From Cohnella kolymensis (lineage in GTDB: Bacteria > Bacillota > Bacilli > Paenibacillales > Paenibacillaceae): DNA of 64,000 nt. The notes below the pieces were generated by a model. That model made no database searches. It saw nothing but the letters and a program-made list of their open reading frames with translations, and was not told where the DNA came from. The translations under genes were made by a program, and so were the position numbers. Below, piece after piece: positions 5,501 to 20,607 of this stretch. The stretch lies in assembly GCF_000829465.1 (NCBI RefSeq), contig NZ_JXAL01000014.1:1-64000 (forward strand). Reading direction: 5' to 3'. Each line of letters begins with the position of its first letter. Position 1 is the first letter of the stretch.

Positions 5501-6256
5501 TCAAATTCTGCAAACTTCCTTAGGACAGGCCGGGCAAGCAGGACAATGGCAAATTCGTCTGAGGGCATTCAGATTTAATATGATGATGCGGCCTTTCCGT
5601 ATATCGATTGTCCCTTCGTCCTTCAATGCGTTAAGCATACGATTGACGCTTTCCCTCGTAGTGCCGATGAAATCAGCCAGCTCCGTATTGTTCAGCTTGA
5701 TGCTGATCCGGATACCGTCTGCACAAGCGATACCGTATGAATTCGCCAGCCGGATCAGCGTAGACGCCAGCGCGCCAGGTTTGCCGTACAGCAGCAGGTC
5801 GCGAAACTTTGACTCGGTTACCCGGTGCAGCAGCGCCATCCAGTTGAGGAATCTGACGGCGAATTCACCGTTACGGTACAGAAGAATTTCAAGGTCCTTC
5901 CACTGGATGACGCCGATATCCGCATCTTCCACCACTTCAGCGCTGAAGCTGTGAACTGCGCGCATGCCGTCCTCCGGCTCACACAGCATATCCCCCGCCT
6001 GTATAATAGACAGGATAAAGTCCTTGCCGTCCTCCGTCGACTTCCGCAGCTTTACTTTTCCAGATCGCAAATAGTAGAGCTTGCCGGTAGGGTCCCCCTC
6101 CCAGAACAGGTAACTACCCGCTTCCGCACGTTTCGGATACATAAGCTCCTCCAACCCTGCGAACTGTTCCTTCGAAAAGAAATTATCAATACTCAGAGGA
6201 TTTGCACATTGTTCCGTAACACCGTGTTTTTTGACAGCCGCTGCACTTATCGCCAT
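5501..6256 (-). CDS. fnr: Fnr, oxygen-sensing Crp/Fnr-family regulator
   Basis: Transcription factor that activates anaerobic genes when its Fe-S cluster is intact. The 251-residue protein has a cNMP-binding-like beta-roll (about 35-150), a dimer helix and a winged helix-turn-helix (TELADFIGTTRESVNRMLNALKDE). The C-terminus carries five cysteines, including C241-x2-C244-x4-C249, the same spacing as the cluster ligands of Bacillus subtilis Fnr. The start is the ATG at 6256 with AAGGAG 8 bases upstream; an in-frame GTG at 6265 overlaps that RBS and is unlikely. It is divergent from the GAF/RR/kinase operon, and the shared intergenic region holds an Fnr box and three GGG-N4-CCC dyads, suggesting autoregulation. 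Confidence 0.93.
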   Translation of the reverse strand: MAISAAAVKKHGVTEQCANPLSIDNFFSKEQFAGLEELMYPKRAEAGSYLFWEGDPTGKLYYLRSGKVKLRKSTEDGKDFILSIIQAGDMLCEPEDGMRAVHSFSAEVVEDADIGVIQWKDLEILLYRNGEFAVRFLNWMALLHRVTESKFRDLLLYGKPGALASTLIRLANSYGIACADGIRISIKLNNTELADFIGTTRESVNRMLNALKDEGTIDIRKGRIIILNLNALRRICHCPACPACPKEVCRI

Positions 6257-6317
6257 GTTTGCCACTCCTTTTTTTCTTGTGAATCAAGCATACCTGCTCT
6301 GCTGACAAAACGTTATC

Positions 6318-6427
6318 GGGGAATTTCCTGAAAGATGAAAAGGGATTTCCCTTATTTCACTGTGAGAAAAATCACACCGGGGACAGAAATCAGTATTTTC
6401 CCGAGTCTATTTTCAGGGAATTCCCCA
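6318..6427. promoter_or_regulatory. Three AGGG-N4-CCCT-type dyads in the fnr/GAF intergenic region
   Basis: Dyads are at 6318-6331 (GGGGAATTTCCTGA), 6340-6353 (AAGGGATTTCCCTT) and 6414-6427 (CAGGGAATTCCCCA). The central one fits the TAGGG-N4-CCCTA palindrome reported for NreC of Staphylococcus. The outer two form an inverted pair with each other. They flank the Fnr box at 6361. Binding by the adjacent response regulator is inferred. Confidence 0.5.
6361..6376. promoter_or_regulatory. Fnr box between fnr and the GAF/RR/HK operon
   Basis: TGTGAGAAAAATCACA is a perfect TGTGA-N6-TCACA palindrome, the Fnr consensus of Bacillus. It could control fnr itself, the divergent operon, or both. Confidence 0.8.
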
Positions 6428-6495
6428 ATATACTTCGGTTGCGGCAACCCCTACACTTATAAATAGAACGAGTAGGCAGGGAAGGGGTGCTAAGC

Positions 6496-6954
6496 ATGAA
6501 TAACCGTGATCATTTGCTTACGGAAGAATTGCAGCGACTTCGAACTCAGATCGGCAGTGATTTTTGCTCGCTAGGGTTGTTGGAAGGCTATGATCGGCTG
6601 CTGAAATGGAAGCTGGCTTCGGGGAACGTCAACGACAGGTTTCTATCGATCATTGAACGGCCGGGCAGGGGGCTCAGCGGATCCGTTGTGAAAGTCGGCA
6701 GAGCCATGCAGTTGAACGTGCCGGAGCTTGTTGCTGCAAGGCAGCTGCATGAATATGCCGTTCTGCTCGCTGAAAATTTGCGGTCTGCGTATGCGATCCC
6801 CCTATTTATAGGAAATCAGGTGACGGGTATATTGCTGGCGGGCGACCGTAAAAGGCGCATATACCGAACGGAAGAGCGAAATCAGATTGCGCTGGCGGGT
6901 GAACGAATCACACAGATCGTCGCGGAACAGGCTGTGGAGCCGAAATCATCCTGA
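6496..6954 (+). CDS. GAF-domain protein, NreA-like sensor
   Basis: A 152-residue cytosolic protein made of one GAF domain (SDFCSLGLLEGYDRLLKW... AIPLFIGNQVTGILLAGD). In staphylococci NreA is a small GAF protein that binds nitrate and controls the NreB kinase. Size, fold and position next to a LuxR-type response regulator and PAS kinase support an analogous role, but ligand and partner are inferred. The ATG at 6496 is chosen over the GTG at 6487 because AAGGGG lies 9 bases upstream of the ATG but abuts the GTG. It is the first gene of a three-gene operon divergent from fnr. Confidence 0.7.
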   Translation: MNNRDHLLTEELQRLRTQIGSDFCSLGLLEGYDRLLKWKLASGNVNDRFLSIIERPGRGLSGSVVKVGRAMQLNVPELVAARQLHEYAVLLAENLRSAYAIPLFIGNQVTGILLAGDRKRRIYRTEERNQIALAGERITQIVAEQAVEPKSS

Positions 6955-7001
6955 TTGATATGGTAAAATGGAAAACGATAGTTTCGCGAAGGAGTGACTT
7001 C

Positions 7002-7655
7002 ATGGTTCGGATATTGGTCGTAGATGATCATGTGGTGGTTCGGTCAGGGCTCATCATGCTGCTCCACGGTAAGAACGACATGCAGGTGGTAGGAGAGGCG
7101 GCTGAAGGAGACGAAGCGGTGTCGAAAGCCGAAGAACTGCATCCGGATGTTGTCCTCATGGATTTAAGCATGCCTCACGGCAAGGATGGGCTGACGGCTA
7201 CGGCGGAGCTTAAGAAGCGGCTGCCGGACACAGCGATCCTTATACTAACGATGCATGATGATGAAGAATATTTGTTCCGGGCCATACATGCCGGAGCTTC
7301 CGGATATATTTTGAAAAGCGCGCCTCATGAGGAATTGCTCACGGCGATTCGCCAAATCTCAGGCGGGAACGCCTATTTATCTCCCACAGCGACCAAGCGC
7401 CTGATGAGTGATTATCTCGACAAGATGAAGAACGGCGAGCACGCGGGCACCTATGAGTCGCTATCCGATCGGGAGAAAGAAATTCTTGCGAAAGTGGCTC
7501 AAGGATACTCCAACAAGGAAATCGCCGAGCAGCTGATCATCAGTGTCAAGACGGTCGAGTCACACAAGAGCAATCTGATGGAGAAGCTGGATTTGAGAAC
7601 AAGGCCCGCTCTTGTCAAATTCGCGATGAAGAAAGGATTGCTGAACTTTGAGTGA
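7002..7655 (+). CDS. NarL/FixJ-family response regulator (NreC-like)
   Basis: A 217-residue two-component regulator. The receiver domain has the acidic pair VDDH, the phospho-acceptor aspartate in VLMDLSMP and the conserved lysine in YILKSA. The C-terminal LuxR helix-turn-helix is LSDREKEILAKVAQGYSNKEIAEQL...KTVESHKSNLMEKL. The start at 7002 has AAGGAG 7 bases upstream; the longer reading from 6960 is unlikely. It is encoded between a GAF protein and a histidine kinase, and its stop overlaps the kinase start, so the two are translationally coupled. Likely targets are the GGG-N4-CCC dyads upstream of its own operon. Confidence 0.9.
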   Translation: MVRILVVDDHVVVRSGLIMLLHGKNDMQVVGEAAEGDEAVSKAEELHPDVVLMDLSMPHGKDGLTATAELKKRLPDTAILILTMHDDEEYLFRAIHAGASGYILKSAPHEELLTAIRQISGGNAYLSPTATKRLMSDYLDKMKNGEHAGTYESLSDREKEILAKVAQGYSNKEIAEQLIISVKTVESHKSNLMEKLDLRTRPALVKFAMKKGLLNFE

Positions 7656-8766
7656 ACGGAGCAGCCAGGAACGATATCCCTCGGAAAATATCGCGGAGAA
7701 TGTGGATTCTCTGTTGGAACGGCTGGACGGGCAGATCGCCGATCCGGCTTTTAGAGATGTTCTGAAACGATCTCTCAAGCAGCTTGCCGATGTTAAATTC
7801 GCTTTGGATGAAGCCTCCATCGTTGCGGTGACGGATCGCAAAGGAACAATCCAGTATGTGAACGATAAGTTCTGCAAGATTTCGGGTTACTCCAGGGAGG
7901 AGCTTATCGGACAGGATCACAGGCTTGTGAACTCCGGCTGCCACGGCAAGGCGTTCATGCGTGATTTGTGGAGCAGCATCTCATCCGGACACGTCTGGCA
8001 GGGAGAAATAAAAAACCGTTCCAAAAACGGCGGGGAATATTGGGTTGACACCACTATCGTTCCATTTGTAGATGCGGAGGGCCGCCCCTATCAGTATTTG
8101 GCGATTCGTCATGAAGTGACGCAGCTGAAGCAGACGGAAGAGCAGCTGCAGTCGATGATGGCCCAGATGATGCAAATCCAGGAAGAGGAGCGACGGCGCT
8201 TCTCGCGAGATTTGCATGACGGAATCGGGCAAAGCTTATTTTCGCTGAAAATAACGCTGGATCGGATGATTTCGGAAGGAGCAGACAAGGGGCTGGAGAA
8301 CCTTGGGCGTGAAGTATCGCAATTAATGGCCGAGGTTCGCGGGCTCGCTTGGGAGCTTCGTCCCTCCGTGCTTGATGATTTGGGCATCGTGCCCGCTCTT
8401 CGAACCTATATTGAAAATTATGAGCAGCATTATGGCATTCGCGTTCATTTCGACTGTAATCTACGCAAACGGCCGAACCTTTTGATAGAGACGACGATTT
8501 ACCGCGTTGTGCAGGAGGCGCTGACCAACGTCGCCAAATACGCAGACGTTTTCGAGGCCTGTGTGGCGGTACGCGATCATGGCGACCATTTGGAAGCAGT
8601 CGTCGAAGACCGGGGTATCGGCTTCAGCAGGGAAAAGAAAGGCCGCGGCGTCGGTTTATTCAGCATGGAGGAACGGGCAAGGGCGGTTGCAGGAGAGCTG
8701 CGAGTTCGCTCGCAGCCGGGCGAGGGTACCGCTGTGAAGTTAAAAGTGCCGATTAAAGCGGGCTAA
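7648..8766 (+). CDS. PAS-domain sensor histidine kinase (NreB-like, HisKA_3)
   Basis: A 372-residue kinase without membrane segments, so the signal is probably cytosolic. A PAS domain covers about 50-158 and resembles redox PAS domains (VNDKFCKISGYSREELIGQDH...GEYWVDTTI). The HisKA_3 box has the phospho-accepting His190 in SRDLHDGIGQ, the N-box is QEALTNVAKYA, and a GxGF/GVGL ATP lid follows. Unlike staphylococcal NreB it has no CxxC...CxxC cluster for Fe-S; only Cys76 and Cys98 lie in the PAS domain, so any oxygen sensing must use another cofactor. The TTG start overlaps the response regulator stop, with AAAGGA about 10 bases upstream. Confidence 0.88.
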   Translation: MSERSSQERYPSENIAENVDSLLERLDGQIADPAFRDVLKRSLKQLADVKFALDEASIVAVTDRKGTIQYVNDKFCKISGYSREELIGQDHRLVNSGCHGKAFMRDLWSSISSGHVWQGEIKNRSKNGGEYWVDTTIVPFVDAEGRPYQYLAIRHEVTQLKQTEEQLQSMMAQMMQIQEEERRRFSRDLHDGIGQSLFSLKITLDRMISEGADKGLENLGREVSQLMAEVRGLAWELRPSVLDDLGIVPALRTYIENYEQHYGIRVHFDCNLRKRPNLLIETTIYRVVQEALTNVAKYADVFEACVAVRDHGDHLEAVVEDRGIGFSREKKGRGVGLFSMEERARAVAGELRVRSQPGEGTAVKLKVPIKAG

Positions 8767-8779
8767 ACTGTAATCGTTG

Positions 8780-8839: not shown

Positions 8840-8855
8840 TGTGAAGTTTGTCACA
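8840..8855. promoter_or_regulatory. Fnr box upstream of the CuA lipoprotein
   Basis: TGTGAAGTTTGTCACA is a perfect TGTGA-N6-TCACA site about 60 bases before the lipoprotein start codon. Confidence 0.8.
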
Positions 8856-8915
8856 GTGTGAGCGCGATGCAGCGATGTATGATGAACGCGTATCAGAATC
8901 GAAGGAGGAGACGAC

Positions 8916-9317
8916 ATGAAGAAATCAATGTACACAATCGGCGTTGTATTGGCAGCCGCACTAATCGCTACCGGATGCGGCGGAGGCGGCGGCAACGAGA
9001 ATACAGCGGCTGCAGCACCGGAGGCGGCACAAGCTGCAAACGTAGATGCAAGCGGCGCCAAGGCGATCACGATCAACGCCAAGAATTTTGAGTTTGACCA
9101 AAAAGAAATCAAAGTGAAAAAAGGCGAGAAGCTCAGCATCACACTGAAAAACAGTCAAGGAAACCATGCCATCCAAATCGAAGGCTATGACCAACAGATC
9201 AAAGGAGGCAAAACGGTAACTTTTACTGCGGATAAGGCCGGAGAGTTCAGGTTTCTGTGCTCCGTCATGTGCGGTGCAGGCCACATAGATATGGTCGGCA
9301 AATTGATCGTGGAATGA
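8916..9317 (+). CDS. CuA-type cupredoxin lipoprotein
   Basis: A 133-residue exported lipoprotein with a signal peptide and lipobox ending at Cys21 (LIATGC), a short Gly/Ala-rich linker, and one cupredoxin domain. The domain keeps a histidine in GNHAIQI and the full CuA ligand set CSVMCGAGHIDM (C-x3-C-x3-H-x2-M), as in subunit II of cytochrome oxidases and in N2O reductase, but there is no oxidase transmembrane hairpin. It probably sits on the outer face of the membrane and passes electrons to or from a partner such as the ba3 oxidase encoded 6 kb downstream (inferred). It is monocistronic with a perfect Fnr box upstream and a strong RBS (AAGGAGG). Confidence 0.85.
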   Translation: MKKSMYTIGVVLAAALIATGCGGGGGNENTAAAAPEAAQAANVDASGAKAITINAKNFEFDQKEIKVKKGEKLSITLKNSQGNHAIQIEGYDQQIKGGKTVTFTADKAGEFRFLCSVMCGAGHIDMVGKLIVE

Positions 9318-9365: not shown

Positions 9366-9381
9366 TGTGATTAATTTCACA
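9366..9381. promoter_or_regulatory. Fnr box upstream of the first hemerythrin-like gene
   Basis: TGTGATTAATTTCACA is a perfect TGTGA-N6-TCACA site about 100 bases before the start codon at 9484. Confidence 0.8.
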
Positions 9382-9483
9382 TTAATTGCTCCGTGACTTG
9401 TGTTAGATTAGAGGTCGCCTGTTACTATCTCGATTATGCACCGTTTATACATATGATAATAGGTGTATAGGGAGGTATGACAG

Positions 9484-10005
9484 ATGAATGCAAAATACTC
9501 GGTTCACAGTGCTTCCGACAATGGCGGCAGCGTGCGGGAGTTTCTGATACAGGATACCGTTCAGCGTGCCAAGCAAGAGCATGATTTGCTCAAAGAAGAA
9601 CTTCAGGACATTTACCAACAGGCCTGTATCGTACGCAGAGAACAGAATGAGATCCGGCTTAACCGAGAAATGCGTCAATTGAAGGACAGTGTTACGCATT
9701 TCATCAAGGAATGGAGTGCCCATACAAGATGGGAAGAATCAGAGCTGTTCCCATTCGCCGCAAACTATTGGGGAGAGGAGCCGGATCTCTTCGCACTCAT
9801 GGAGCAGGAGTTTGAGCTGGCCGAGCAATTCATTCGCGGATTTTTGCAAACCCTGGATCGTGCCGTTGTACTTCTTCCTCAAGAAGAAGCACGCAGAATG
9901 GCCTCTTATTTAATACAGGCTTATGCAATTTTGAAAAACCGTTTCTCCGAGGAGGAGGAAATTATACTGTTGCTGACGGACCGCTCCAACAGTTTCGCTT
10001 ACTAA
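9484..10005 (+). CDS. Hemerythrin-like (HHE) helical protein 1, partly degenerate
   Basis: A 173-residue all-helical protein. It keeps QEHDLLKEEL and HTRWEESELFPF (HxxxE) of the hemerythrin/HHE fold, which uses a di-iron site to bind O2 or NO. The third and fourth helices read EQEFELAEQF and NRFSEEEEI, where the usual histidines are replaced by Phe and Arg, so iron binding may be lost or altered. It is a single gene under its own perfect Fnr box, with an AGGGAGG RBS. A second HHE-like protein is encoded 0.7 kb downstream. The family assignment is by motif; function is inferred. Confidence 0.7.
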   Translation: MNAKYSVHSASDNGGSVREFLIQDTVQRAKQEHDLLKEELQDIYQQACIVRREQNEIRLNREMRQLKDSVTHFIKEWSAHTRWEESELFPFAANYWGEEPDLFALMEQEFELAEQFIRGFLQTLDRAVVLLPQEEARRMASYLIQAYAILKNRFSEEEEIILLLTDRSNSFAY

Positions 10006-10051
10006 AGGCTTAAATACGATTGTACTTTTTTTCACAAAAAAAGAACTTCAG

Positions 10052-10067
10052 TGTGATGAACTTCACA
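10052..10067. promoter_or_regulatory. Fnr box upstream of doxX-HHE-pflBA
   Basis: TGTGATGAACTTCACA is a perfect TGTGA-N6-TCACA site 80 bases before the preferred doxX start, placing the whole doxX-HHE-pflB-pflA operon under probable Fnr control. Confidence 0.85.
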
Positions 10068-10146
10068 TTCATCGAAACAATCATCCCTCATACTGAAGGT
10101 GCAAGGAAAACAAAACAATCCTAAATCCCGAAGGGAGATGGCCTTA

Positions 10147-10690
10147 ATGGTCATGAGATGGTTCAAACAAAATGTATGGGCGGCTGCAGTAGTCATGGTA
10201 TTACGGATTTACCTGGGTGTGCAATGGATCGAGGCGGGCTGGCACAAGCTGACGGACGGATTTGATGCTGCGGGTTTCTTGAAGGGCGCGGTAGCAAAGC
10301 CGATTGCCGATCATGCAACCCAAGCAGTTATATTCCCTAACTATACTTACTTCTTGGAGCACTTCGCTCTCCCCAACGTGAAGCTGATCAACTTCCTGAT
10401 TCCTGTCGGAGAATTTTTAATTGGTGTGGGACTCATCGTCGGCGGATTGACGCTCACGGCTGCATTCTTCGGTCTGATGTTGAACTTCATGTTCCTCCTG
10501 GCCGGAACCCTAAGCACGAACTTGGCTGCTGCTTATCGGATTCATTGTCATGGCGGCGGGTGCCAACGCAGGACGCTTCGGGATTGACGCTTACTTGATG
10601 CCTCTGCTTCGCAAAGGCTGGGCCAAATTGACCGGTAATCATCCTAAAAACAAGACCGGCGGCAAACTCGGCAAAACCTTGCCCCACTGA
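10147..10690 (+). pseudogene. DoxX-family membrane protein, frameshifted
   Basis: Read across one frame change, this is a four-helix DoxX-family membrane protein of about 180 aa, related to the small subunit of archaeal quinol oxidase and to MhqP/CatD-type proteins. The first frame carries RIYLGVQWIEAGWHKL and the central helices up to LAGTLSTN. The second frame continues WLLLIGFIVMAAGANAGRFGIDAYL and ends with a basic tail at 10690. The frames join at about 10522 (one extra base, or two missing). The ATG at 10147 has AAGGGAG 9 bases upstream; upstream ATG codons overlap the RBS. It lies first in the Fnr-controlled operon. A sequencing error is plausible because the downstream part is well conserved. 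Confidence 0.78.
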
Positions 10691-10713
10691 CGAAATAAAG
10701 GGAGGGTACGCTC

Positions 10714-11199
10714 ATGGATAACTCGAATTCAGCGCTGCTCGACTTGTATCTCACTTACGATCAATGGAAAGAAGAGCATGAGGCTCTGTATGCCAGGCTG
10801 CTTGAATTGTGCCGGCTTATGAAATGGAACCCGTCCAACTACGAGTACCCCGACTGGGATGCTCATCATCGCAAGGTCCGGAATTCCTTCATTCCATTCA
10901 TGCTCGATTGGCAAAGGCATTTGAGCAAGGAGAGGAGGACGATCTATCCGATCGCCAAATCTTTGACCTGCGGCGGCCGAATCGGCCCGGTCGCCGCACT
11001 CGAGCAGGATGACCGCATCGCCGCCCAGTTCTATGAGGAGTATCAGAAGGTTACGAAGGACGGCACATCACCGGAAGACGCTCTTTCCCGCTTGTTGCAG
11101 GTACTTATGATCATTGCAGAGCATTTCCGTGTTGAGGACGAGACGGTTGTCCCAGCGACGGATCGGCTGATGGAGCAATTAGAATACAGCAGTTGTTGA
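10714..11199 (+). CDS. Hemerythrin-like (HHE) helical protein 2
   Basis: A 161-residue helical protein with three of the expected metal-ligand helices: EEHEALYARLL, WQRHLSKERRTIYP (HxxxE) and AEHFRVEDETVVP (HxxxE/D). The third helix carries EQDDRIAAQFY, where an EH pair is usual. A di-iron O2- or NO-binding role is inferred from the family. It lies between doxX and pflB, 16 bases before pflB, so it may protect the oxygen-sensitive glycyl radical of PflB by binding residual oxygen (speculative). RBS is GGGAGG. Confidence 0.7.
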   Translation: MDNSNSALLDLYLTYDQWKEEHEALYARLLELCRLMKWNPSNYEYPDWDAHHRKVRNSFIPFMLDWQRHLSKERRTIYPIAKSLTCGGRIGPVAALEQDDRIAAQFYEEYQKVTKDGTSPEDALSRLLQVLMIIAEHFRVEDETVVPATDRLMEQLEYSSC

Positions 11200-11215: not shown

Positions 11216-13486
11216 ATGGCTATCACTGAAGAATACGGAATTGAACCTGCTCCGGCTCCTCTCGATGAATGGAGAGGTTTCCGGCAAGGACGCTGGCAGC
11301 AGCAGATTGACGTTAACGACTTTATCGGGCTTAACCTGACTCCTTACGAGGGTGATGAAAAATTCCTTGCCGAACCGACGGATGCTACCAAGCGGATGTG
11401 GGCAATGGTTCTGGAGCTGATGAAGCAGGAGCGCGAGAACGGCGGCGTCCTTGATGTCGACACGAACACGGTGTCAACGATCACATCACACAAGCCGGGT
11501 TATATCGACCGTAATTTGGAAAGAATCGTCGGTCTGCAGACGGATGCTCCGCTGAGACGCTCGGTTCAGCCTCTCGGCGGCATCCGGATGGTTATAGACG
11601 CTTGCGAAGCCTATGGATACAAGCTGCCGGACGAAATTGTCCGATTGTTCACAGATATACGCAAAACGCACAACCAAGGAGTATTTGATGTATATACCGA
11701 TGAGATGAAGCTGGCACGCAAAGCCGGGATTATCACCGGACTGCCGGACGCATACGGAAGGGGCCGTATTATAGGAGACTACCGGAGGGTGGCCCTGTAC
11801 GGAGTCAATCGGTTGATTCAAGCGAAAAAGGCCGATCTGGCTCTGGCAACGGATGTCATGTCGGAAGAGGTCATACGGCAGCGGGAAGAGCTGGCGGAGC
11901 AAATTCGCAGCTTGGGCGATTTGAAACAGATGGCCGGGTCCTACGGTTATGATATCTCCGTTCCGGCCAAGAACGCCGAGGAAGCAGTACAGTGGCTGTA
12001 CTTCGCTTACTTAGCGGCGATCAAGGAGCAGAATGGGGCGGCCATGAGTCTTGGACGCGTATCCAGCTTTCTTGACATCTACATCGAGCGCGACATTCGG
12101 GAAGGCAAGCTGACCGAGGCTCAGGCGCAGGAATTGATAGACCAGTTCGTCATGAAGCTGCGTCTCGTCAAGTTTCTCCGTACGCCGGATTACAATGAGC
12201 TGTTCAGCGGCGACCCGACATGGGTGACCGAATCGATCGGCGGCATGGCCAACGACGGCAAGACAAGGGTGTCGCGAAATTCATTCCGGTTTCTCCATAC
12301 CCTGTACAACCTAGGGCCGGCACCGGAGCCAAACCTGACCGTTCTGTGGTCGAAGAGGCTTCCTCAAGGCTTCAAGGACTATTGTGCGAAAGTATCCGTA
12401 GATACGAGTTCCATTCAGTATGAAAATGATGATCTGATGCGGCCCTTCTACGGAGATGATTACGGTATCGCCTGCTGTGTGTCGGCGATGCGCATCGGAA
12501 AACAAATGCAGTTTTTCGGAGCTCGGGCGAATCTCGCCAAAGCCTTATTGTACGCCATCAACGGCGGAATCGATGAAAAGCTCGGTATTCAAGCCGGCCC
12601 AACGCTGGCACCTCTCACCGGTGAAATACTCGAATACGATGAGGTCATGCAGCGTTACGATGATATGCTGGAATGGCTTGCCAAGCTCTACATGAATACA
12701 CTCAACGTCATTCATTACATGCACGACAAATACTGCTATGAACGAATCGAAATGGCGCTTCACGATACCGAAATTGTGCGTACGATGGCTTGCGGAATCG
12801 CCGGACTGTCGGTCGTTGCCGATTCGCTCAGCGCAATCAAATACGCTAAGGTTCGTCCGATACGCAACGAAAAAGGACTGGCCGTCGACTTCGACATCGA
12901 AGGGGAGTACCCGCAATATGGGAATAACGATTCCCGGGTTGACGATATCGCCGTGCAATTGACGGAGACGTTCATGAAAAAGCTTCGCAAGCACCGCACG
13001 TATCGCGACGCCATGGCGACGATGTCGGTACTAACGATTACCTCCAATGTGGTATACGGCAAAAAAACCGGCAGTACGCCTGACGGCCGCAAAGCGGGCG
13101 AACCATTCGCCCCGGGAGCGAACCCGATGCACGGCCGGGACCGGAAGGGCGCGCTCGCGTCCTTGAACTCCGTCGCCAAGCTGCCGTACGATAGCTGCCT
13201 GGATGGTATATCGAACACATTTTCCATCATACCGAAGGCGCTCGGACGCGATGCAGATACGCGGATCCGCAGCCTTGTATCGCTGCTCGACGGTTACGCT
13301 TCGAAGGGCGGGCATCACCTGAACATTAACGTATTCAACCGCGAGCAGCTGCTCGACGCGATGGAGCACCCGGAGGAATATCCTCAGCTCACCATACGTG
13401 TCTCGGGCTATGCGGTGAACTTTATCAAACTTACGAAAGAGCAGCAGCTCGACGTTATCAGTCGCACTTTCCACGGCCACGTGTAA
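11216..13486 (+). CDS. pflB: Pyruvate formate-lyase (formate C-acetyltransferase)
   Basis: Glycyl-radical enzyme converting pyruvate and CoA to acetyl-CoA and formate in anaerobic cells. The 756-residue length fits the family. The adjacent catalytic cysteines are Cys420-Cys421 in IACCVSAM, and the radical glycine is Gly731 in RVSGYAV near the C-terminus, at the positions expected from the E. coli enzyme. It is immediately followed by its activating enzyme and preceded by a hemerythrin-like gene in a probable Fnr-regulated operon. The downstream PduL-AckA fusion could convert its acetyl-CoA to acetate and ATP. Identification is secure. Confidence 0.97.
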
Positions 13487-13518: not shown

Positions 13519-14259
13519 ATGACAACCGGGAGAATTCACTCTCTCGAAACGTTCGGGACCGTAGACGGTCCGGGCATACGTTTCGTGCTTTTCCTGCAAG
13601 GCTGTGCGCTTCAATGCCGTTACTGCCACAACCCCGATTCATGGGATCCGCATGCCGGATCCACGAGGACGGTAGATAACATCCTCGCAGAAATCGAGCC
13701 GTATGCCGAATACTATTTGAGCTCCGGAGGCGGAATTACCGTTACCGGCGGCGAACCGACACTGCAAGCCCCCTTCGTCGCCGAGCTGTTCCGAAGGTGC
13801 AAAGAACGCTGGGGCCTGCATACCGCGCTGGATTCTTCCGGTTTCTGCGATTCGTCCCATGTAGAGGAACTGCTTGCTGTAACGGATCTGGTGCTGTTAG
13901 ACCTGAAATTTATGGATCGGGAAGGCCATATGGCTCTGACCGGCCAGCCGAACGACCGCATTCTTGCATTCGCAAGGCATCTGTCGCAGCGGGGAAAGAA
14001 AATGTGGATCCGCCGGGTGCTCGTACCCGGATTAACTGACGAAAAAGAAGAGCTGCTTGCTTTAGGGCGTTTCATGCAAGAACTTGACGGAGTGGACAAA
14101 ATCGAAGTACTGCCTTATCACCGAATGGGCGTTTATAAATGGCGGCAGCTCGGTATCCCTTACACTCTTGAGGATATCGCCGACCCGGACCCGGTGGATA
14201 TTCAGCGGGCATACCGGCTGATTGGGGAAGGCCGCATCATATCGAATGCCGTCCACTGA
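13519..14259 (+). CDS. pflA: Pyruvate formate-lyase activating enzyme
   Basis: Radical SAM enzyme that installs the glycyl radical on PflB. The 246-residue protein carries the cluster motif GCALQCRYCHNPDSW (C-x3-C-x2-C) and the SAM-binding VTGGEPTLQ segment. The start has a GAGGGGAGCG RBS and lies 32 bases after pflB. Its 3' end runs into a terminator, so the doxX-HHE-pflBA operon probably ends here. Length and motifs are typical. Confidence 0.96.
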   Translation: MTTGRIHSLETFGTVDGPGIRFVLFLQGCALQCRYCHNPDSWDPHAGSTRTVDNILAEIEPYAEYYLSSGGGITVTGGEPTLQAPFVAELFRRCKERWGLHTALDSSGFCDSSHVEELLAVTDLVLLDLKFMDREGHMALTGQPNDRILAFARHLSQRGKKMWIRRVLVPGLTDEKEELLALGRFMQELDGVDKIEVLPYHRMGVYKWRQLGIPYTLEDIADPDPVDIQRAYRLIGEGRIISNAVH

Positions 14260-14296: not shown

Positions 14297-14923
14297 ATGT
14301 CATCATCAACGATTACCGGTGCGATTCTGGCCGGAGGACCGAATAAATTCATGTCGGGTACCCTGAAGCCTTTGCTTCCCTTTGACGGTGGAACGCTGAT
14401 CGAGCACCAGATCCGGATCATGCGTGAGCTGTGCGGGGAGATCATCGTCGTTACGAACACTCCGAAACCTTTTTTTGACGTTCTCGACCGATCCGTCCGT
14501 CTGATCACAGACTATTTCCCTGACTGCGGTCCGCTCGGGGGCATTCACGCCGCGCTGCACCTTGCGAGAAATCCTCTCGTCTGGGTTGCCGGCTGCGACA
14601 TGCCTTTCCTATCAACTGAGGCGGCACGGCGTTTGGTAGAGAATCGCACAGAACACAACCGCGCGTTCGTCCCGACGATCGGGAACAGGCCCCTGCCGCT
14701 CCACGGAATCTACGACAAACGTTGTGCGGCAGATGCTGCGAATCTGTTGTCCACCGGAGAGAAGCGGCTTGAAGCATTCCTTAATAAGGCCGGTTACTTG
14801 GGTATATCGGCCGATTCGTGGAGAGAGGAACAATCCATCGGCGATTTTGCGTTCACCATCAGAAGCCAAGAGGATTACGAACGGGCCGAGGAGCGGTTGT
14901 CACGAATTCTACACACAAGATAA
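14297..14923 (+). CDS. mobA: Molybdenum cofactor guanylyltransferase (MobA-like)
   Basis: A 208-residue nucleotidyltransferase predicted to attach GMP to molybdopterin. It starts with a variant of the family signature (ILAGGPNKFMSGTLKPLLPF), and has GPLGGIHAAL and the metal-binding AGCDMPFL. MobA matures cofactor for enzymes such as formate dehydrogenase or nitrate reductase, neither of which is in the window. It follows the pflA terminator, with RBS AAGGAGGG. The signature lacks the usual arginine before Met-Gly, so a relative acting on another nucleotide product cannot be excluded. Confidence 0.8.
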   Translation: MSSSTITGAILAGGPNKFMSGTLKPLLPFDGGTLIEHQIRIMRELCGEIIVVTNTPKPFFDVLDRSVRLITDYFPDCGPLGGIHAALHLARNPLVWVAGCDMPFLSTEAARRLVENRTEHNRAFVPTIGNRPLPLHGIYDKRCAADAANLLSTGEKRLEAFLNKAGYLGISADSWREEQSIGDFAFTIRSQEDYERAEERLSRILHTR

Positions 14924-14931
14924 TGACAGGG

Positions 14932-14947
14932 TGTGATGAAAGTCACA
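14932..14947. promoter_or_regulatory. Fnr box upstream of the ba3 oxidase operon
   Basis: TGTGATGAAAGTCACA is a perfect TGTGA-N6-TCACA site about 60 bases before the first cox gene. Confidence 0.85.
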
Positions 14948-15005
14948 GTTGAAGGGCTGCAATGTTTCTACAATAAAGTCAACTCATAGACAGGAGGTAC
15001 ACCCT

Positions 15006-15200: not shown

Positions 15201-15671
15201 ATGCATCTTCATCGTCTCGAAAAAATATGGCTTACGATCGGCATCGGCATGCTGGCTGTTTTTCTGCTTGTGCTGGGCACGATGGCTTTCAGCATGGGAA
15301 CAACGACGCCGAGCCAGCACCACCATACGATTGACCCATCCGAGGTGTCGACGACAGCGCCTTTCGACAAGCCGGGGCTCACGAAGGCTGGCGATAAGCA
15401 TTTTGAAGCCGTCATGGTGGCCTATGCCTTCGGTTACGAGCCTCAAACGCTCGAGGTTCCGGCCGGCTCAACGGTAGATTTTAAAGTGACCAGTTCGGAC
15501 GTGGTACACGGCTTCTCGATTGTAGGCACCAACGTCAACATCATGGTGGTACCGGGCGAAGTGAGTCAGATCAGCCATACGTTTGACAAGCCCGGGGAGT
15601 ATTTGATTCTGTGCAACGAATATTGCGGCACAGGCCACGAGTATATGAAAACCACCATTGTCGTCAAGTAG
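15201..15671 (+). CDS. ba3-type cytochrome c oxidase subunit II
   Basis: A 156-residue membrane-anchored cupredoxin with a single N-terminal helix (about 10-33) and a CuA site: a histidine in VVHGFSIVG and the loop CNEYCGTGHEYM (C-x3-C-x3-H-x2-M). It accepts electrons from cytochrome c or a cupredoxin and passes them to subunit I. The short form with one helix is typical of ba3 (B-type) oxidases, in line with the separate subunit IIa gene upstream. It belongs to the operon with the perfect Fnr box, implying use at low oxygen. Confidence 0.92.
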   Translation: MHLHRLEKIWLTIGIGMLAVFLLVLGTMAFSMGTTTPSQHHHTIDPSEVSTTAPFDKPGLTKAGDKHFEAVMVAYAFGYEPQTLEVPAGSTVDFKVTSSDVVHGFSIVGTNVNIMVVPGEVSQISHTFDKPGEYLILCNEYCGTGHEYMKTTIVVK

Positions 15672-15683
15672 GAGGAGATTTGA

Positions 15684-17321
15684 GTGAAACAAACTTTTGA
15701 TAGAGGCGACGGCAAACTGGTGCTGGCCCACGTGATTTTCGCGTTTGCGGCGCTGTTGATCGGCGGTATCGCAGGGATGCTGCAAGGCATGGTGCGCAGC
15801 GGCATGGTCACACTGCCGGCCAATATCGGGTATTACGAACTGCTCACCGCGCACGGCGTACTTATGGCTCTCATTTTCACAACTTATTTTATCATCGGAT
15901 TTTTATATTCCGGCGTGTCCAATACTTTAGGCGGGCGGCTGTATCCGCTCACACGCAAGCTCGGATGGCTCGGATATTTGACAATGTCGGTCGGGACCAT
16001 CATCGGTGTCGTTGTCATCTTGCTGGGTAAGGCGACTGTGCTGTATACGTTCTATGCGCCAATGAAGGCCTCTCCCTGGTTCTATATCGCGCTGGCACTC
16101 GTTGTCATCGGCAGCTGGCTCAGCGGCTTCGGGATTTTCCATCAATACAGCAGATGGAGAGCAGAGAATCAGGGTAAATTATCACCCCTCTTCGCATTTA
16201 TGTCCGTCGTAACGATGCTCATGTGGCAGATTGCCACAATCGGTGTGGCGATCGAGGTGGTGGTGCAGCTCATACCTTGGTCGTTCGGCTGGGTGGATAC
16301 CATTAATGTCGTACTGAGCCGCACACTGTTCTGGTATTTCGGTCATCCGCTCGTGTACTTCTGGCTGTTGCCGGCTTATATCTGCTGGTATGTGGTTATA
16401 CCGAAAATCATCGGGGGACGTATTTTCAGCGATTCGCTCGCCAGGCTCTCGTTCATTCTCTTCCTGTTATTCTCCATCCCGGTCGGCTTCCACCACCAAT
16501 TGATGGAGCCGGGGATCAGCGGTTTCTGGAAATTCCTACAGGTCGTGTTGACCTTCATGGTTATCGTTCCATCGCTTATGACGGCGTTCTCCATGTTCGC
16601 AACGTTTGAAATGAACGGTCGGGCCAAAGGGGCGAAAGGACTTTTCGGCTGGCTGAAGGTGCTTCCTTGGAAGGATGTCAGGTTCTTCGCTCCTTTCATG
16701 GGCATGCTCGTGTTCATTCCGGCCGGGGCAGGCGGCATCATCAATGCCAGTAATCAGATGAATGCGGTTGTGCATAACACGCTTTGGGTGACCGGACACT
16801 TCCATCTAACTGTGGCTACCAGCGTGGCGTTGACTTTCTTCGGCATCATCTACTGGTTGATCCCGACGGTGACGGGCAGGGTGTTAACGCCCAAAATGAA
16901 CAAGCTGGGTATCATTCAAACGTTAATCTGGTGTGTCGGAATGCTGTTCATGTCGGGATCCATGCATACGGTCGGGTTGATGGGGGATCCGCGCAGAACC
17001 GCGTACACGACTTACGATGATCATCCGGACGCAGTTCTTTGGATGCCTTACCATGTTGCAATGGCTATCGGTGGTATGATCCTTTTTGTCGGCGTCATAT
17101 TGATCGTGTATAACATGTTTGCCTTAATGCGTGCTCCGAAAGGGGAAACCGAATATCCGATCGGCCAGGTATCTGAAGAGTCGGAACCGACACCGCGGTT
17201 TCTGGAGCGTTGGGGAATTTGGCTGGGCTTGGCCGTTGCGCTTATCTTGTTCGCCTACACGATCCCGTTGATCGACATGCTGAACAACACGGTCAACTCT
17301 CCGGGTTACGTCACCTGGTGA
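15684..17321 (+). CDS. ba3-type cytochrome c oxidase subunit I
   Basis: Catalytic subunit reducing O2 to water and pumping protons, in the cell membrane. The 545-residue multi-helix protein has the low-spin haem histidine in TAHGVLMALI, the CuB His-Tyr helix GHPLVYFWLLPAY, the CuB HH pair in GFHHQLMEPG, and the paired haem ligands in TGHFHLTV. These patterns fit B-type (ba3) haem-copper oxidases. The GTG start at 15684 follows GGAGGAG. Haem A supply and CuA assembly could come from ctaA, ctaB and sco in this window. The operon is under an Fnr box, suggesting a high-affinity, low-oxygen enzyme. Confidence 0.95.
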   Translation: MKQTFDRGDGKLVLAHVIFAFAALLIGGIAGMLQGMVRSGMVTLPANIGYYELLTAHGVLMALIFTTYFIIGFLYSGVSNTLGGRLYPLTRKLGWLGYLTMSVGTIIGVVVILLGKATVLYTFYAPMKASPWFYIALALVVIGSWLSGFGIFHQYSRWRAENQGKLSPLFAFMSVVTMLMWQIATIGVAIEVVVQLIPWSFGWVDTINVVLSRTLFWYFGHPLVYFWLLPAYICWYVVIPKIIGGRIFSDSLARLSFILFLLFSIPVGFHHQLMEPGISGFWKFLQVVLTFMVIVPSLMTAFSMFATFEMNGRAKGAKGLFGWLKVLPWKDVRFFAPFMGMLVFIPAGAGGIINASNQMNAVVHNTLWVTGHFHLTVATSVALTFFGIIYWLIPTVTGRVLTPKMNKLGIIQTLIWCVGMLFMSGSMHTVGLMGDPRRTAYTTYDDHPDAVLWMPYHVAMAIGGMILFVGVILIVYNMFALMRAPKGETEYPIGQVSEESEPTPRFLERWGIWLGLAVALILFAYTIPLIDMLNNTVNSPGYVTW

Positions 17322-17361
17322 GGTGATCCGAATGCAAACTGCAGTTAAGGGGCGACATGAA

Positions 17362-17895
17362 ATGAGAATTCTAGTTCACGGTAAGAATTTGGAAGTTACG
17401 GAACCGATGAAGGAATACGCCGAGCGCAAGCTGGAACGGTTACACAATATTGATGACGGTGAAATCCTAGTCACCTTCTCATTGCTGGGACACCGGCCTC
17501 TCCATAAAGTGGAGGTTACTCTGCGCGTCGAGGGTACGGTCATTAGAGCTGAAGAGGCGGCTGATGATATGTACGCGGCAATTGACCTGGTGACTGACAA
17601 ATTGACGGGCAAGTTCCGCAAATTTCGGGATAAGATCAGGCGAGGAATGAAGCGGGGCTTTGCTTCGGCAATGGCTTCCCCCCTTCAAGCCGATGAGCCG
17701 GCAGATGAGGAAAAGTTGGATGTCGCCCGGATCAAGACAGTGGATTTAAAACCGGTAGATCTGGAAGAGGCCATCTTGCAAATGAATCTATTGGATCATG
17801 CTTTTCATGTCTTTATCAATACGGAAACCGGCCGGACGGAAGTTGTGTATAGACGGCGTAACGGGACATACGGATTGATCCGGGATGTAATGTAG
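17362..17895 (+). CDS. hpf: Long-form ribosome hibernation promoting factor
   Basis: A 177-residue protein with the N-terminal S30AE ribosome-binding domain (EPMKEYAERKLERL...) and the C-terminal dimerisation domain (VDLEEAILQMNLLDHAFHVFIN), i.e. the long form that makes inactive 100S ribosomes. The ATG at 17362 has AAGGGG 9 bases upstream and begins the conserved domain; the reading from 17323 is longer but has no such support. It follows coxA by 40 bases with no terminator between, so it probably belongs to the Fnr-controlled oxidase operon, which would couple ribosome hibernation to oxygen limitation (inferred). Confidence 0.93.
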   Translation: MRILVHGKNLEVTEPMKEYAERKLERLHNIDDGEILVTFSLLGHRPLHKVEVTLRVEGTVIRAEEAADDMYAAIDLVTDKLTGKFRKFRDKIRRGMKRGFASAMASPLQADEPADEEKLDVARIKTVDLKPVDLEEAILQMNLLDHAFHVFINTETGRTEVVYRRRNGTYGLIRDVM

Positions 17896-17901
17896 CGACT
17901 G

Positions 17902-17931: not shown

Positions 17932-18058
17932 TAAGCTGATAGTAATCAGTCTGAAGTGAAGGTGGAGCAGTGAAGCTAAGTCTAAGGCCGTTGAAGAGAG
18001 AGCTGCGAGCAAATTTGAATGCCAAAATCTATGTGTTCCGGTTGTAAGCGTAGGAGCC

Positions 18059-18236
18059 TAAGGGGGTTTATCCGTTTTACAGAATGCGGAAGCGGGGAAC
18101 TTTTTGCTGTAAGGCGGTTTTGCCGCCTTACAGGCTGAGAGAGCACAGAATTTTTGCTGTAAGGCGGTTTTACCGTCTTACAGGCTGAAGAAACGCAGAA
18201 TTTTTGCTGTAAGGAGGTTTTGCCGCCTTACAGGCA
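18059..18236. repeat. Tandem 50-base hairpin repeats
   Basis: Copies begin at 18101, 18151 and 18201 (exact 50-base period), each TTTTTGCTGTAAGGCGG, a TTTTG-type loop, then CCGCCTTACAG. The stem is 11 bp. Copy 2 keeps pairing through a G-U wobble and copy 3 has one mismatch. A decayed fourth copy lies at about 18059-18100. There are no distinct spacers, so this is not a CRISPR array. Confidence 0.75.
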
Positions 18237-18244
18237 CTAACGGG

Positions 18245-18297
18245 AAAAAAGGCTGCCCGACAACTCATTCTCATGAGCTGTCGGGCAGCCTTTTCCT
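18245..18297. terminator. Bidirectional terminator between hpf and uspA
   Basis: GGCTGCCCGACA pairs perfectly with TGTCGGGCAGCC, extended by an inner CTCAT/ATGAG pairing, with A-run and T-run on the two sides. It serves uspA and the repeat region. Confidence 0.85.
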
Positions 18298-18303
18298 ATC
18301 TAT

Positions 18304-18735
18304 TCACTTCACGATAAGGACGGGAATCTTCGAATGTTGAGTTACGTAATGACTGACGCTTCCGAGGAAAAATTCCTTTACTCCGCTTAATCCTCTGCTG
18401 CCCATCACTATAAGATCGGCATTTAATTTTTCGCCTTGCTGAAGAATAGCCTTATCAGGTCTTTCTTCCACAATGTACAAAGTCCAGCGGTTGGGAATCG
18501 AGGCCAGTATCTTTTCGGCTTTAACTTTAATGTATTCCCCTTGTTTTTTGGCGTCTTCAATCCGACTTAAAATCGCAAAACCCGAATATTCGGATAACGA
18601 AGCAACGGATTCGATCGCATGGAGCACAACAATCTCGGTCGCCGGCTGACTTTTGGCCAATTCAATACTCATCTGCAAAGCGCGGTCCGCCAGTTCGGAT
18701 CCGTCATAACCGACAACAATTTTCGAATATAACAT
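18304..18735 (-). CDS. Universal stress protein (UspA family)
   Basis: A 143-residue cytosolic protein with the Usp fold: KIVVGYDGSELADRAL at the N-terminus and the ATP-binding signature GSRGLSGVKEFFLGSVSHYV near the C-terminus, so it is an ATP-binding type. The start is the ATG at 18735 with GGGAG about 9 bases upstream; the upstream in-frame start at 18762 lacks an RBS. It is divergent from the PduL-AckA gene, and two Fnr-like boxes lie between them, so it may be induced under low oxygen. Confidence 0.9.
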   Translation of the reverse strand: MLYSKIVVGYDGSELADRALQMSIELAKSQPATEIVVLHAIESVASLSEYSGFAILSRIEDAKKQGEYIKVKAEKILASIPNRWTLYIVEERPDKAILQQGEKLNADLIVMGSRGLSGVKEFFLGSVSHYVTQHSKIPVLIVK

Positions 18736-18788
18736 ACTCTCCACTCCCTTCATTTGTCTCAATTGTATCGAGTGAACAGGGAAAGAGC

Positions 18789-18804
18789 TGTGATGGATAT
18801 CACT
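18789..18804. promoter_or_regulatory. Near-perfect Fnr box (uspA / pduL-ackA)
   Basis: TGTGATGGATATCACT matches TGTGA-N6-TCACA in nine of ten positions. It lies between the divergent uspA and pduL-ackA genes. Confidence 0.65.
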
Positions 18805-18814
18805 ATCGACGCAC

Positions 18815-18830
18815 TGTGACGAAATTCATA
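18815..18830. promoter_or_regulatory. Second near-perfect Fnr box (uspA / pduL-ackA)
   Basis: TGTGACGAAATTCATA matches TGTGA-N6-TCACA in nine of ten positions and is centred 26 bases from the previous box. Confidence 0.55.
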
Positions 18831-18900
18831 GTCGGGAAATTACCTATGCCCTATTATAGGTAACAGATATCGATTATTTTCATATGAGGAGCTATTGCCC

Positions 18901-20607
18901 ATGAAAGCTGCCGTAGGGGTTTCCAATCGACATATTCATTTGAATCGTGAGCACGCGGATCTATTATTCGGCAAAGACTATCACTTTGTACAATTAAAAC
19001 CTCTCATTCAACCCCGTCAATTTGCATGCGAGGAGACAGTCAGCGTAAGAGGCCCAAAAGGTATCATCCACAACGTGAGAGTGTTAGGACCTCTTCGTTC
19101 GTATACACAGCTGGAAGTGTCCAAAACAGACTGCTGCCTGCTCGGTGTGGACGCACCAGTCAGAGATTCCGGGGATATAGAAGATTCGCCTGGTATTGAA
19201 GTGATCGGTCCCAAAGGAAATTTGTCCTTGAACAAGGGGGTTATTATCCCTTTCCGACATTTGCATCTGCATCCGGAGGACGCAGGACGGCTGGGCGTGC
19301 AGGACAAACAATTGGTAGCCGTCAAAACCAACGGGGACAGGATGCTGATTCTGGAAAATGTCCTCTGCCGCGTTAACCCTCAGTACAGTCTTGAATTTCA
19401 TATCGATACGGACGAAGCGAATGCATCGGGGCTGCGAAACGGGGATCAAGTCCAAATTGTGGCCGTCGACGGCTACCATGAGCTCACAACCTATCAGAAA
19501 AAGAAGATGCTCGTTTTGAATTGCGGCAGCAGCACGATCAAATTCAAATTATTTGAAATGCCCTCTGAAAAACTGCTTATGCAAGGAAACACACCGCGCG
19601 CCTCTGATCGCACGCTGGGAGACGCGCTTGCGGATATTTTCGAACAGGTCGGGCGGGACGTCGATGTCGTGGCGCATCGCGTTGTACATGGAGCCGACCT
19701 TTTCAGCTCCTCGGTACTGGTGACGGACGAGGTCATGCGGCAAATCGAATCGATTTCCTATCTCGCACCTTTACACAATCCGATCAATTTGGAAGGGGTA
19801 CGGCTGTGCCAGATGCGATATGAGGGAGTTCCGCAAGTCGTCGTGTTCGATACAAGCTTTCATCAAACAATGCCGCCCACCTCTTATCTGTACTCCATTC
19901 CTTATGAATACTACGAAAAACATAAGATTCGCAAATACGGGTTTCACGGAAGCAGTCATCGTTATGTTGCGGCCCGAGCCGCGGAGATTATGGGCAAACC
20001 TATTGAAAACCTCCGCTTGATCAGCTGCCATATTGGGAACGGAGTAAGTGTGACCGCGATTCGAAACGAAGAATCGTACGATACATCTATGGGGCTTACG
20101 CCGCTTGCAGGTGTGACCATGGGAACGCGAAGCGGAAATATCGATCCGGCGATTATTCCTTATTTGGAGCGACTCGAAGGACTGCAAGCCGACGAAGTCA
20201 TTCATGTTCTGAATCACCGCAGCGGTCTGCTGGGGATATCGGGAGTGAGCAACGATCTTCGCGAGCTGCTGCTTCACGCGAAAGAAGGGCATAAGAGATC
20301 CCAGCTGGCTCTCGATTTGTTCGTGAGCAAGCTGCACCAATATATCGGGCTTTATTTCGCGCGTCTGAACGGCGCCGACGGGATCATATTTACGGCTGGG
20401 GTCGGTGAAAACAGTGCGGAGATTCGGGACATGGTGTGCCAGGGACTTGAGTTTGCAGGGGTGTATCTCGATGCTCAATCGAACTGGAACGGGCAAGGTG
20501 AAAGACTGATCTCCAGCCAATATTCGCCGATCAAGGTGATGGTTATACCCACCAATGAGGAAATCGTGATGGCCCGCGACGCCTATCAAATTGTGGTCAA
20601 AGTGTGA
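18901..20607 (+). CDS. PduL phosphotransacylase - acetate kinase fusion
   Basis: One 568-residue open frame joins two enzymes. Residues 1 to about 195 are a PduL-type phosphate acyltransferase with its two-part metal-binding signature (SNRHIHLNREHADLLFG and FRHLHLHPEDA). From about 203 a complete acetate kinase follows: LNCGSSTIKFK, AHRVVHGAD, APLHNP, VVFDTSFHQTMP, YGFHGSSH, CHIGNG, MGTRSGNIDPA, TAGVGEN and IPTNEE. Together they would turn acetyl-CoA and phosphate into acetate and ATP in one polypeptide. The linker is short (about 10 residues). The ATG at 18901 lies 9 bases after AGGAG and is preferred to the TTG at 18895. Two Fnr-like boxes lie upstream. It is the natural partner of the PFL genes 5 kb away. 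Confidence 0.93.
   Translation: MKAAVGVSNRHIHLNREHADLLFGKDYHFVQLKPLIQPRQFACEETVSVRGPKGIIHNVRVLGPLRSYTQLEVSKTDCCLLGVDAPVRDSGDIEDSPGIEVIGPKGNLSLNKGVIIPFRHLHLHPEDAGRLGVQDKQLVAVKTNGDRMLILENVLCRVNPQYSLEFHIDTDEANASGLRNGDQVQIVAVDGYHELTTYQKKKMLVLNCGSSTIKFKLFEMPSEKLLMQGNTPRASDRTLGDALADIFEQVGRDVDVVAHRVVHGADLFSSSVLVTDEVMRQIESISYLAPLHNPINLEGVRLCQMRYEGVPQVVVFDTSFHQTMPPTSYLYSIPYEYYEKHKIRKYGFHGSSHRYVAARAAEIMGKPIENLRLISCHIGNGVSVTAIRNEESYDTSMGLTPLAGVTMGTRSGNIDPAIIPYLERLEGLQADEVIHVLNHRSGLLGISGVSNDLRELLLHAKEGHKRSQLALDLFVSKLHQYIGLYFARLNGADGIIFTAGVGENSAEIRDMVCQGLEFAGVYLDAQSNWNGQGERLISSQYSPIKVMVIPTNEEIVMARDAYQIVVKV

Follow-up and report, generated by a model that had tools for sequence, protein, structure and literature searches.

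A block of genes at positions 5,501 to 20,607 of a 64,000-nucleotide stretch of the Cohnella kolymensis genome (contig NZ_JXAL01000014.1, positions 1 to 64,000; hereafter the window) contains fnr, which encodes a Bacillus-type Crp/Fnr regulator, and a divergent operon of nreA-, nreC- and histidine kinase-type genes. Two sets of palindromes within this block suggest a local two-tier switch, in which the NreA/C/B-like system turns on fnr and Fnr in turn switches on the block, a reading to which we assign a probability of roughly 0.73. In the first tier, a redox or nitrate signal would reach the kinase and the NreA-like protein, and the kinase, whose PAS domain is of a flavin-binding type, would phosphorylate the NreC-like response regulator. 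Judged by the position of the sites, this regulator would bind a palindrome of consensus TCRGGGAATTCCCYGA (operator E) centred at -43.5, at the copies E1 and E3 and perhaps E2, and activate both fnr and its own operon. In the second tier, Fnr, which by analogy with its family should be active at low oxygen, where its cluster stays intact, would bind TGTGA-N6-TCACA (the Fnr box) at -41.5 (at 8840, -42.5) for class II activation of six promoters, those of cuA, hemerythrin, doxX-HHE-pflBA-mobA, oxidase-hpf, uspA and pduL-ackA. From the box at 6361, Fnr may also feed back on the first tier, in either direction. Activation by Fnr from -41.5 or -42.5 is well supported by the position of the boxes. 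The sites, their spacing and their conservation are read directly from the genomes.

Fnr and its probable boxes

Perfect Fnr boxes lie at 6361, 8840, 9366, 10052 and 14932 and one-mismatch boxes at 18789 and 18815, the same coordinates that the initial annotation of this block had given; an additional one-mismatch box of the window, at 31373, falls outside the block. That annotation had seen no other perfect site in the window and proposed comparing site density inside and outside the block. Across the whole genome of 4,344,717 bases the five are the only perfect sites, all in the block and spanning 8,587 bp (chance of five random points sharing such a span, p ~8e-11). When the two half-sites were paired at spacings of 0-20 as a control, 47 pairs were found genome-wide, with all five N6 pairs in the block and none of the 42 pairs at other spacings. 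By hand count the genome-wide N6 total is ordinary (5, against 5 at N0 and 7 at N7), and it is the concentration of boxes in the block, not this total, that is striking.

The window holds no excess of sites with up to two mismatches to the Fnr box (26 found, 21.9 expected). Over the whole genome 74 one-mismatch boxes, part of which were placed, compare with 40 matches to the reversed pattern, and weaker Fnr sites elsewhere in the genome are possible. The Escherichia coli-type motif TTGAT-N4-ATCAA has no perfect site in the window, and its matches at up to two mismatches (55 against 34 expected) are dispersed over it. Eight genomes of the same genus hold 6-12 perfect boxes each, 1 to 4 of which lie within 25 kb of fnr (hand count), and in genome G003 an extra cluster of 5 of its 12 perfect boxes sits at a displaced block. 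Tight clustering is strongest in C. kolymensis, the same-genus relatives (n = 8) being more dispersed; the description of the block as self-contained, made in the initial annotation, suits its perfect sites and its boxes joined to a -10 at up to one mismatch, and does not extend to these eight relatives, whose perfect sites are spread more widely. Pairs of perfect boxes 66-100 bp apart and distant from fnr also occur in five genomes (G005, G011, G012, G017 and G021, with loci L125 and L126 for G012 and G021).

The boxes at 9366, 10052, 14932, 18789 (minus strand) and 18815 are centred at -41.5 from the start implied by the respective -10, and the box at 8840 lies one base further from its start than these five, at -42.5. 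Because 18789 and 18815 each stand at a -41.5 of their own, they fit the divergent uspA and pduL-ackA genes separately. The seventh box, at 6361, is away from -41.5 of fnr and nreA alike. A genome scan for a box followed by 21 bases and TANNNT gave seven matches at up to one mismatch, five in the block, including the oxidase promoter (14932) with zero mismatches, and two that are copies of a single sequence on other contigs. This duplicated sequence carries a one-mismatch box and a -10 at class II spacing (G000:C18:4214 and G000:C34:171874).

The same spacing recurs in relatives. At offset 37 from the box start a -10-like hexamer (at least four of six matches to TATAAT) is found in 35 of 43 promoters, the next best offset reaching 10 of 43, a figure that reflects conservation and not 43 independent events, as the promoters are kin and include those of the window. 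The set comprises the cuA, hemerythrin, doxX, oxidase, uspA and pduL-ackA promoters of the window and its relatives, excludes fnr and nreA promoters and matches below 40% identity, and scores the nearer of two boxes; promoter counts here and below exclude L059 and L060 (distant Crp proteins) and L046, a duplicate of L124. Fnr boxes precede the same genes in Cohnella and Paenibacillus loci and other relatives while their spacer bases differ, and in several of them a further box lies 29 or 32 bp ahead of the one at doxX. From these promoters the Bacillus-type Fnr looks like a class II activator conserved in Cohnella and Paenibacillus. The ordinary N6 total would suit a chance neighbourhood of ordinary anaerobic genes in which the boxes are noise, but their placement, their fixed spacing to the -10 and their conservation in relatives make that vanishingly improbable. 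The exclusivity of the perfect sites, the class II spacing and the recurrence of boxes at these genes in relatives likewise support the original proposal of an Fnr regulon concentrated in this block.

The Fnr protein ends in CHCPACPACPKEVCRI, where C-x2-C-x4-C is preceded by two more cysteines, and the cluster ligands had thus rightly been described as kept. Bacillus-type Fnr carries an oxygen-labile [4Fe-4S] cluster with aspartate as its fourth ligand, and proteins of the Fnr family are active when the cluster is intact, at low oxygen. The complete motif occurs in 41 of 44 Fnr-type matches (paralogues included, a few genomes represented twice) and, by script, an RDL stretch, which would supply that aspartate, in all 44, one printed row reading RDM. 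A Crp/Fnr fold with a helix-turn-helix, the C-terminal C-x2-C-x4-C and boxes at activator distance together match the protein to Bacillus-type Fnr.

Which protein reads the boxes bears on the second tier. Some match to Fnr at E<=0.001 was found in 39 of 40 genomes, its own included, many of these being other Crp-family proteins. C. kolymensis has one close Fnr, and its next Crp-like match (C1:188829) could in principle be the user of the boxes, since Crp of other bacteria recognises the same TGTGA-N6-TCACA motif. This is improbable: the second protein is only 21% identical to Fnr and encoded on another contig, the boxes gather around fnr in C. kolymensis and partly so in relatives, and the Fnr recognition helix, RESVNR, suits TGTGA (RE[ST]VNR in 36 of 44 Fnr-type matches). 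Still less credible is the NADH-sensing repressor Rex, even though its sequence TTGTGAAW4TTCACAA (PMC2883068) contains the same ten fixed bases. Rex requires A after TGTGA and T before TCACA, which are present in 10 and 28 of 92 box rows (sites with at most one mismatch, those between divergent genes entered twice), and its outer T and A are present in 31 and 25; moreover, -41.5 is an activator position. On the spacer bases of the 92 rows Rex was rejected as the binder.

A second putative operator between fnr and nreA

Operator E emerged as a second palindrome from an alignment of 19 fnr upstream regions, in which E2 is also a conserved block (both among the alignment parts listed). At up to three mismatches it has 57 matches in the 8,580 bp upstream of fnr at 26 loci against nine in the remaining 554,893 bp of the same loci, and it lies upstream of fnr in 24 of the 26. 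Its presence there is partly by construction, the consensus having been derived from these regions; its fixed distance to the -10 is not, nor is its occurrence at the separate loci described below. With the E nearest the start codon and within 260 bp considered, the -10 starts 39 bases after the operator start for 21 of the 30 fnr promoters scored and for 28 of 29 nreA-type ones, the runner-up offsets reaching 11 and 10. L055, which has no such site, is outside the 30.

The best matches to the consensus in the C. kolymensis genome, with one mismatch each, are those at 6316 and 6413, which flank the Fnr box at 6361. Two-mismatch matches (C1:82602, C1:222894 and C1:674012) all fall inside open reading frames, as does a three-mismatch match beside an Fnr-like site at C1:103333; at up to three mismatches, 75 matches compare with 36 for the reversed pattern. 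The shorter AGGGN4CCCT, with one mismatch allowed, is no commoner in the window than chance predicts (16 found, 17.3 expected). Measured from the putative starts of the two divergent units, the box at 6361 lies near -88 and -96. The fnr/GAF-RR-HK region holds a second putative operator that is better placed than this box. On this basis the two-component system probably acts upstream of fnr in addition to lying next to it; its presence next to fnr had been recognised initially, and the upper tier implied by operator E had been missed.

The most likely binder of operator E is the NreC-like response regulator. NreC has the consensus TAGGGN4CCCTA, a palindrome of GGG-N4-CCC type, and a palindrome of this type, a candidate binding site, is present and conserved at fnr/nreA. 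The sites bound by NreC-P of Staphylococcus, at narGHJI, nir and narT, are GC-rich palindromes (PMC8139620). Where nreA-C-B-like genes lie apart from fnr (L137-L143), operator E precedes nreA in seven of seven loci, once with three mismatches, and it also precedes five of six further fnr-type genes lying apart (L034, L035, L037, L038, L041 and L043; 44-50% identical). The 40 genomes contain 42 sites at up to one mismatch, against nine for the reversed pattern, and 15 of the genomes have none. By manual reading, with several sites placed by coordinates alone, 29 of the 42 precede fnr, nreA-type, narK, nirB-like or doxX genes: 16 at fnr or the shared fnr/nre region, six at nreA alone, two at a nirB-like gene, one at doxX and four in G032 and G039, where the genes are nreA-like or narK (the second G039 site by positional analogy). 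The narK genes of L150 and L151 are above the TIGR00886 cut-off, the nirB-like part of L163 matches TIGR02374 over residues 6-467, below cut-off and in a frame that ends at the locus edge, and L165 has the same domains by Pfam scan alone. Two one-mismatch Fnr boxes lie close to the nirB-like E sites of G016 and G020.

Some regulator different from the NreC-like one, such as a ResD-like protein or a factor of global reach, would more readily explain why operator E is kept at fnr where nre genes are not adjacent (L049, L111 and L118), and why it stands at the fnr-type gene of G007 (L034), a genome without an nreC-like match at E<=1e-60 among the 150 of 182 candidates scored. We regard this as unlikely, if the most serious of the alternatives: G003, one of the genomes with non-adjacent nre genes, has an nreC-like gene elsewhere with an E of its own, and operator E at all seven separate nreA-type genes and at narK/nirB-like genes of some relatives points to the NreC-like regulator. 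No nreC-like match was found in G018 either in the same search. In several relatives (L138-L143, L160 and L168-L171) operator E lies between divergently oriented doxX and nreA genes, and in L171 it precedes doxX alone; doxX may be an NreC-type target in these relatives.

Several points weigh against the two-tier switch, in addition to the kinship of the 43 promoters and the case of G007. On the Fnr side, three of the 44 Fnr-type matches lack the full C-x2-C-x4-C, the offset-37 hexamer is found at only 3 of 26 fnr rows (L048, L055 and L058) and 0 of 11 nreA rows, and at up to two mismatches the box-plus-(-10) pattern has 61 genome matches against 37 for the reversed control, so that genuine Fnr targets outside the block are possible. 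For operator E, two of the 26 loci (L055 and L058) have no match upstream of fnr at up to three mismatches, and 13 of the 42 sites have no assigned gene; at L148, L152, L154, L156, L166 and L167 inspection by eye revealed nothing relevant, and the window genes had no match there. A search for narG gave no match above the curated cut-off in C. kolymensis (best 50.5 bits; 3 of 14 control genomes were above; Nap and assimilatory enzymes lay outside the search), which leaves a nitrate signal without obvious use. Finally, we infer the binder of each site, the signals, the sign of each effect and the transcript starts from sequence and position.

The sensor operon and known systems

The nreC-like regulator is the sole match of its kind in the C. 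kolymensis genome at E<=1e-60. The neighbouring kinase matches the structures 3ewk (E 1.2e-53; MmoS, titled a sensor protein in its entry), 8dik (E 6.7e-22) and 2gj3 (E 1.1e-12), its PAS domain being nearest to those of MmoS and Aer. PAS domains of the MmoS, Aer and NifL families bind flavin adenine dinucleotide, whereas the PAS of NreB has four cysteine ligands for a [4Fe-4S] cluster. The kinase has four cysteines in all (76, 98, 270 and 305) and no CxxC; it lacks the cysteine arrangement that an iron-sulfur PAS like the one in staphylococcal NreB should have. With an NreA-type GAF protein and a LuxR-type regulator and HisKA_3 kinase side by side, the operon is best classed as NreABC-like, and not as NreABC proper on account of the kinase PAS.

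The C. kolymensis system resembles the Fnr regulon of Bacillus subtilis in its box, the consensus there being TGTGANNNNNNTCACA (PMC8151001, Table 1), and in having the cluster at the C-terminus (PMC8139620). In B. subtilis, fnr is under ResDE and co-transcribed with narK, and the regulon exceeds 100 genes (PMC8139620); in C. kolymensis, by contrast, the perfect sites lie in one block and fnr carries a putative NreC-type operator. The likeness to Staphylococcus NreABC consists in a homologue of the GAF nitrate receptor, a LuxR-type regulator, a HisKA_3 kinase and GC-rich palindromes. Unlike that system, in which NreB carries a [4Fe-4S] cluster (PMC8139620), the operon has the gene order A-C-B and a flavin-type PAS without CxxC, fnr is the apparent target and no narG scored above cut-off. 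Another parallel is NreBC of Bacillus licheniformis, whose NreC has a staphylococcal-like site and whose NreB PAS groups apart from known iron-sulfur and heme PAS domains, with a bound heme considered by the authors; it differs in having no NreA, sensing sulfide and driving sqr/pdo (PMC9918477).

All parts are of known kinds; as far as our searches reach, neither their wiring in series under a flavin-type kinase nor their confinement to one locus has been described. No report of NreC-type control of fnr was found in the literature searched, most subscription papers lying outside the search. Staphylococcal NreB has been described as a functional equivalent of Fnr (PMC8139620); here, Fnr and an NreB-like sensor appear to be wired in series, with precisely placed operators and with the regulators and many targets in one block. 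This offers a defined, testable case of an oxygen sensor acquiring a second input, and the promoters, with sites at -41.5 and -43.5, form a clean set for work on Gram-positive Fnr and NreC. A broader proposal, which we consider evenly balanced between true and false, is that of a portable module: an NreABC-like system, its iron-sulfur PAS exchanged for a redox-sensing flavin PAS, would directly command fnr. Fnr would then be produced only if the flavin/nitrate input permits it and would function only at low oxygen, with both operator sets confined to one locus in C. kolymensis and the NreC-type operator at fnr replacing ResDE control across many Paenibacillaceae.

Genes of the block

Pfam and NCBIfam agree with the gene identities first given (Table 1), which had omitted the mobA-like gene and the 58-residue protein, the latter perhaps a small oxidase subunit. 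The oxidase had been labelled ba3; COX2 and COX1 were found, and no NCBIfam model for subunit I scored above cut-off in support of that label. By family assignment the products would fit a low-oxygen programme, with formate lyase and its activase, the oxidase and CuA, and hemerythrins; PduL-AckA would fit a role in ATP supply and Hpf and UspA one in quiescence.

Table 1. Coordinates of genes and sites in the fnr block of C. kolymensis (window numbering)
Feature	Position	Strand	Evidence or spacing
fnr, Bacillus-type Crp/Fnr regulator, C-terminal cysteine cluster	5501..6265	-	Pfam HTH_Crp_2, cNMP_binding
Putative -10 of fnr, TATGCT	6287..6292	-	offset 39 from E1 start
Operator E1 (putative), TCGGGGAATTTCCTGA	6316..6331	.	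centre at -43.5 from the putative start of fnr
Operator E2 (putative), AGGGATTTCCCT	6341..6352	.	between E1 and Fnr box
Fnr box, perfect	6361..6376	.	away from -41.5 of both fnr and nreA
Operator E3 (putative), TCAGGGAATTCCCCAA	6413..6428	.	centre at -43.5 from the putative start of nreA
Putative -10 of nreA-nreC-HK operon, TACACT	6452..6457	+	offset 39 from E3
nreA-like GAF protein, nitrate-receptor family	6487..6954	+	phmmer, NreA structures 4pau E 1.2e-19, 4iuh E 7.5e-16
nreC-like LuxR-type response regulator	6960..7655	+	Response_reg, GerE
Histidine kinase, NreB-like layout, PAS of MmoS/Aer/NifL type	7648..8766	+	HisKA_3, HATPase_c, PAS
Fnr box of cuA; -10 TATGAT at 8878-8883	8840..8855	+	centre -42.5
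CuA/cupredoxin lipoprotein	8916..9317	+	Cupredoxin_1; weak NosZ/CoxB C-terminal matches, all below cut-offs
Fnr box of hemerythrin; -10 TTAGAT at 9403-9408	9366..9381	+	centre -41.5
Hemerythrin HHE-domain protein	9484..10005	+	Pfam
Degenerate upstream Fnr box	10021..10036	+	2 mismatches; 31 bp before box 10052
Fnr box of doxX-HHE-pflBA-mobA; -10 CATACT at 10089-10094	10052..10067	+	centre -41.5
doxX	10099..10587	+	DoxX
Second hemerythrin HHE-domain protein	10714..11199	+	Pfam
pflB, pyruvate formate-lyase	11216..13486	+	TIGR01255, 1211.6 bits, above cut-off
pflA, activating enzyme	13519..14259	+	TIGR02493, above cut-off
mobA-like NTP transferase	14297..14923	+	NTP_transf_3; below MobA cut-offs
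Fnr box of oxidase operon; -10 TACAAT at 14969-14974	14932..14947	+	centre -41.5
58-residue protein, one likely membrane helix	15006..15182	+	read from sequence; unclassified
Oxidase subunits II (15201-15671) and I (15684-17321)	15201..17321	+	COX2, COX1
hpf, ribosome hibernation factor	17323..17895	+	Pfam/NCBIfam
uspA	18304..18762	-	Usp
Fnr box of uspA; -10 TACAAT (minus strand) at 18767-18762	18789..18804	-	centre -41.5
Fnr box of pduL-ackA; -10 TATTAT at 18852-18857	18815..18830	+	centre -41.5
Fused PduL-type phosphotransacylase and acetate kinase	18895..20607	+	PTAC 7-180, Acetate_kinase 250-561

In the doxX region (10099-10700) the conserved C-terminal part of the gene lies in a different frame from the listed open reading frame, L049 having a single longer frame, and the break is either genuine damage or a sequencing error. 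For uspA the true start is probably further in, as the listed TTG start overlaps the -10. Repeated GC-rich inverted units are visible by eye at 18100-18240, between hpf and uspA.

In none of the 39 other genomes does a match extend over both halves of the PduL-AckA fusion. The fusion was dropped as a novelty, such fusions being mentioned, with a suggested role in channelling, in PMC4784909; compared with known fusions, that of C. kolymensis lies behind an Fnr box at class II spacing, and the N-terminal region of its AckA part is shortened (by eye; the Pfam match begins at profile position 77). G003 encodes a short stand-alone acetate kinase (76% identical), and a perfect Fnr box lies roughly 90 bp ahead of the match start. 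At the other edge of the block, the open reading frames at 4621-5498, between a SpoU-type methylase gene and fnr, resemble remnants, the first without a Pfam match and the second, by eye, like part of a histidine-triad protein.

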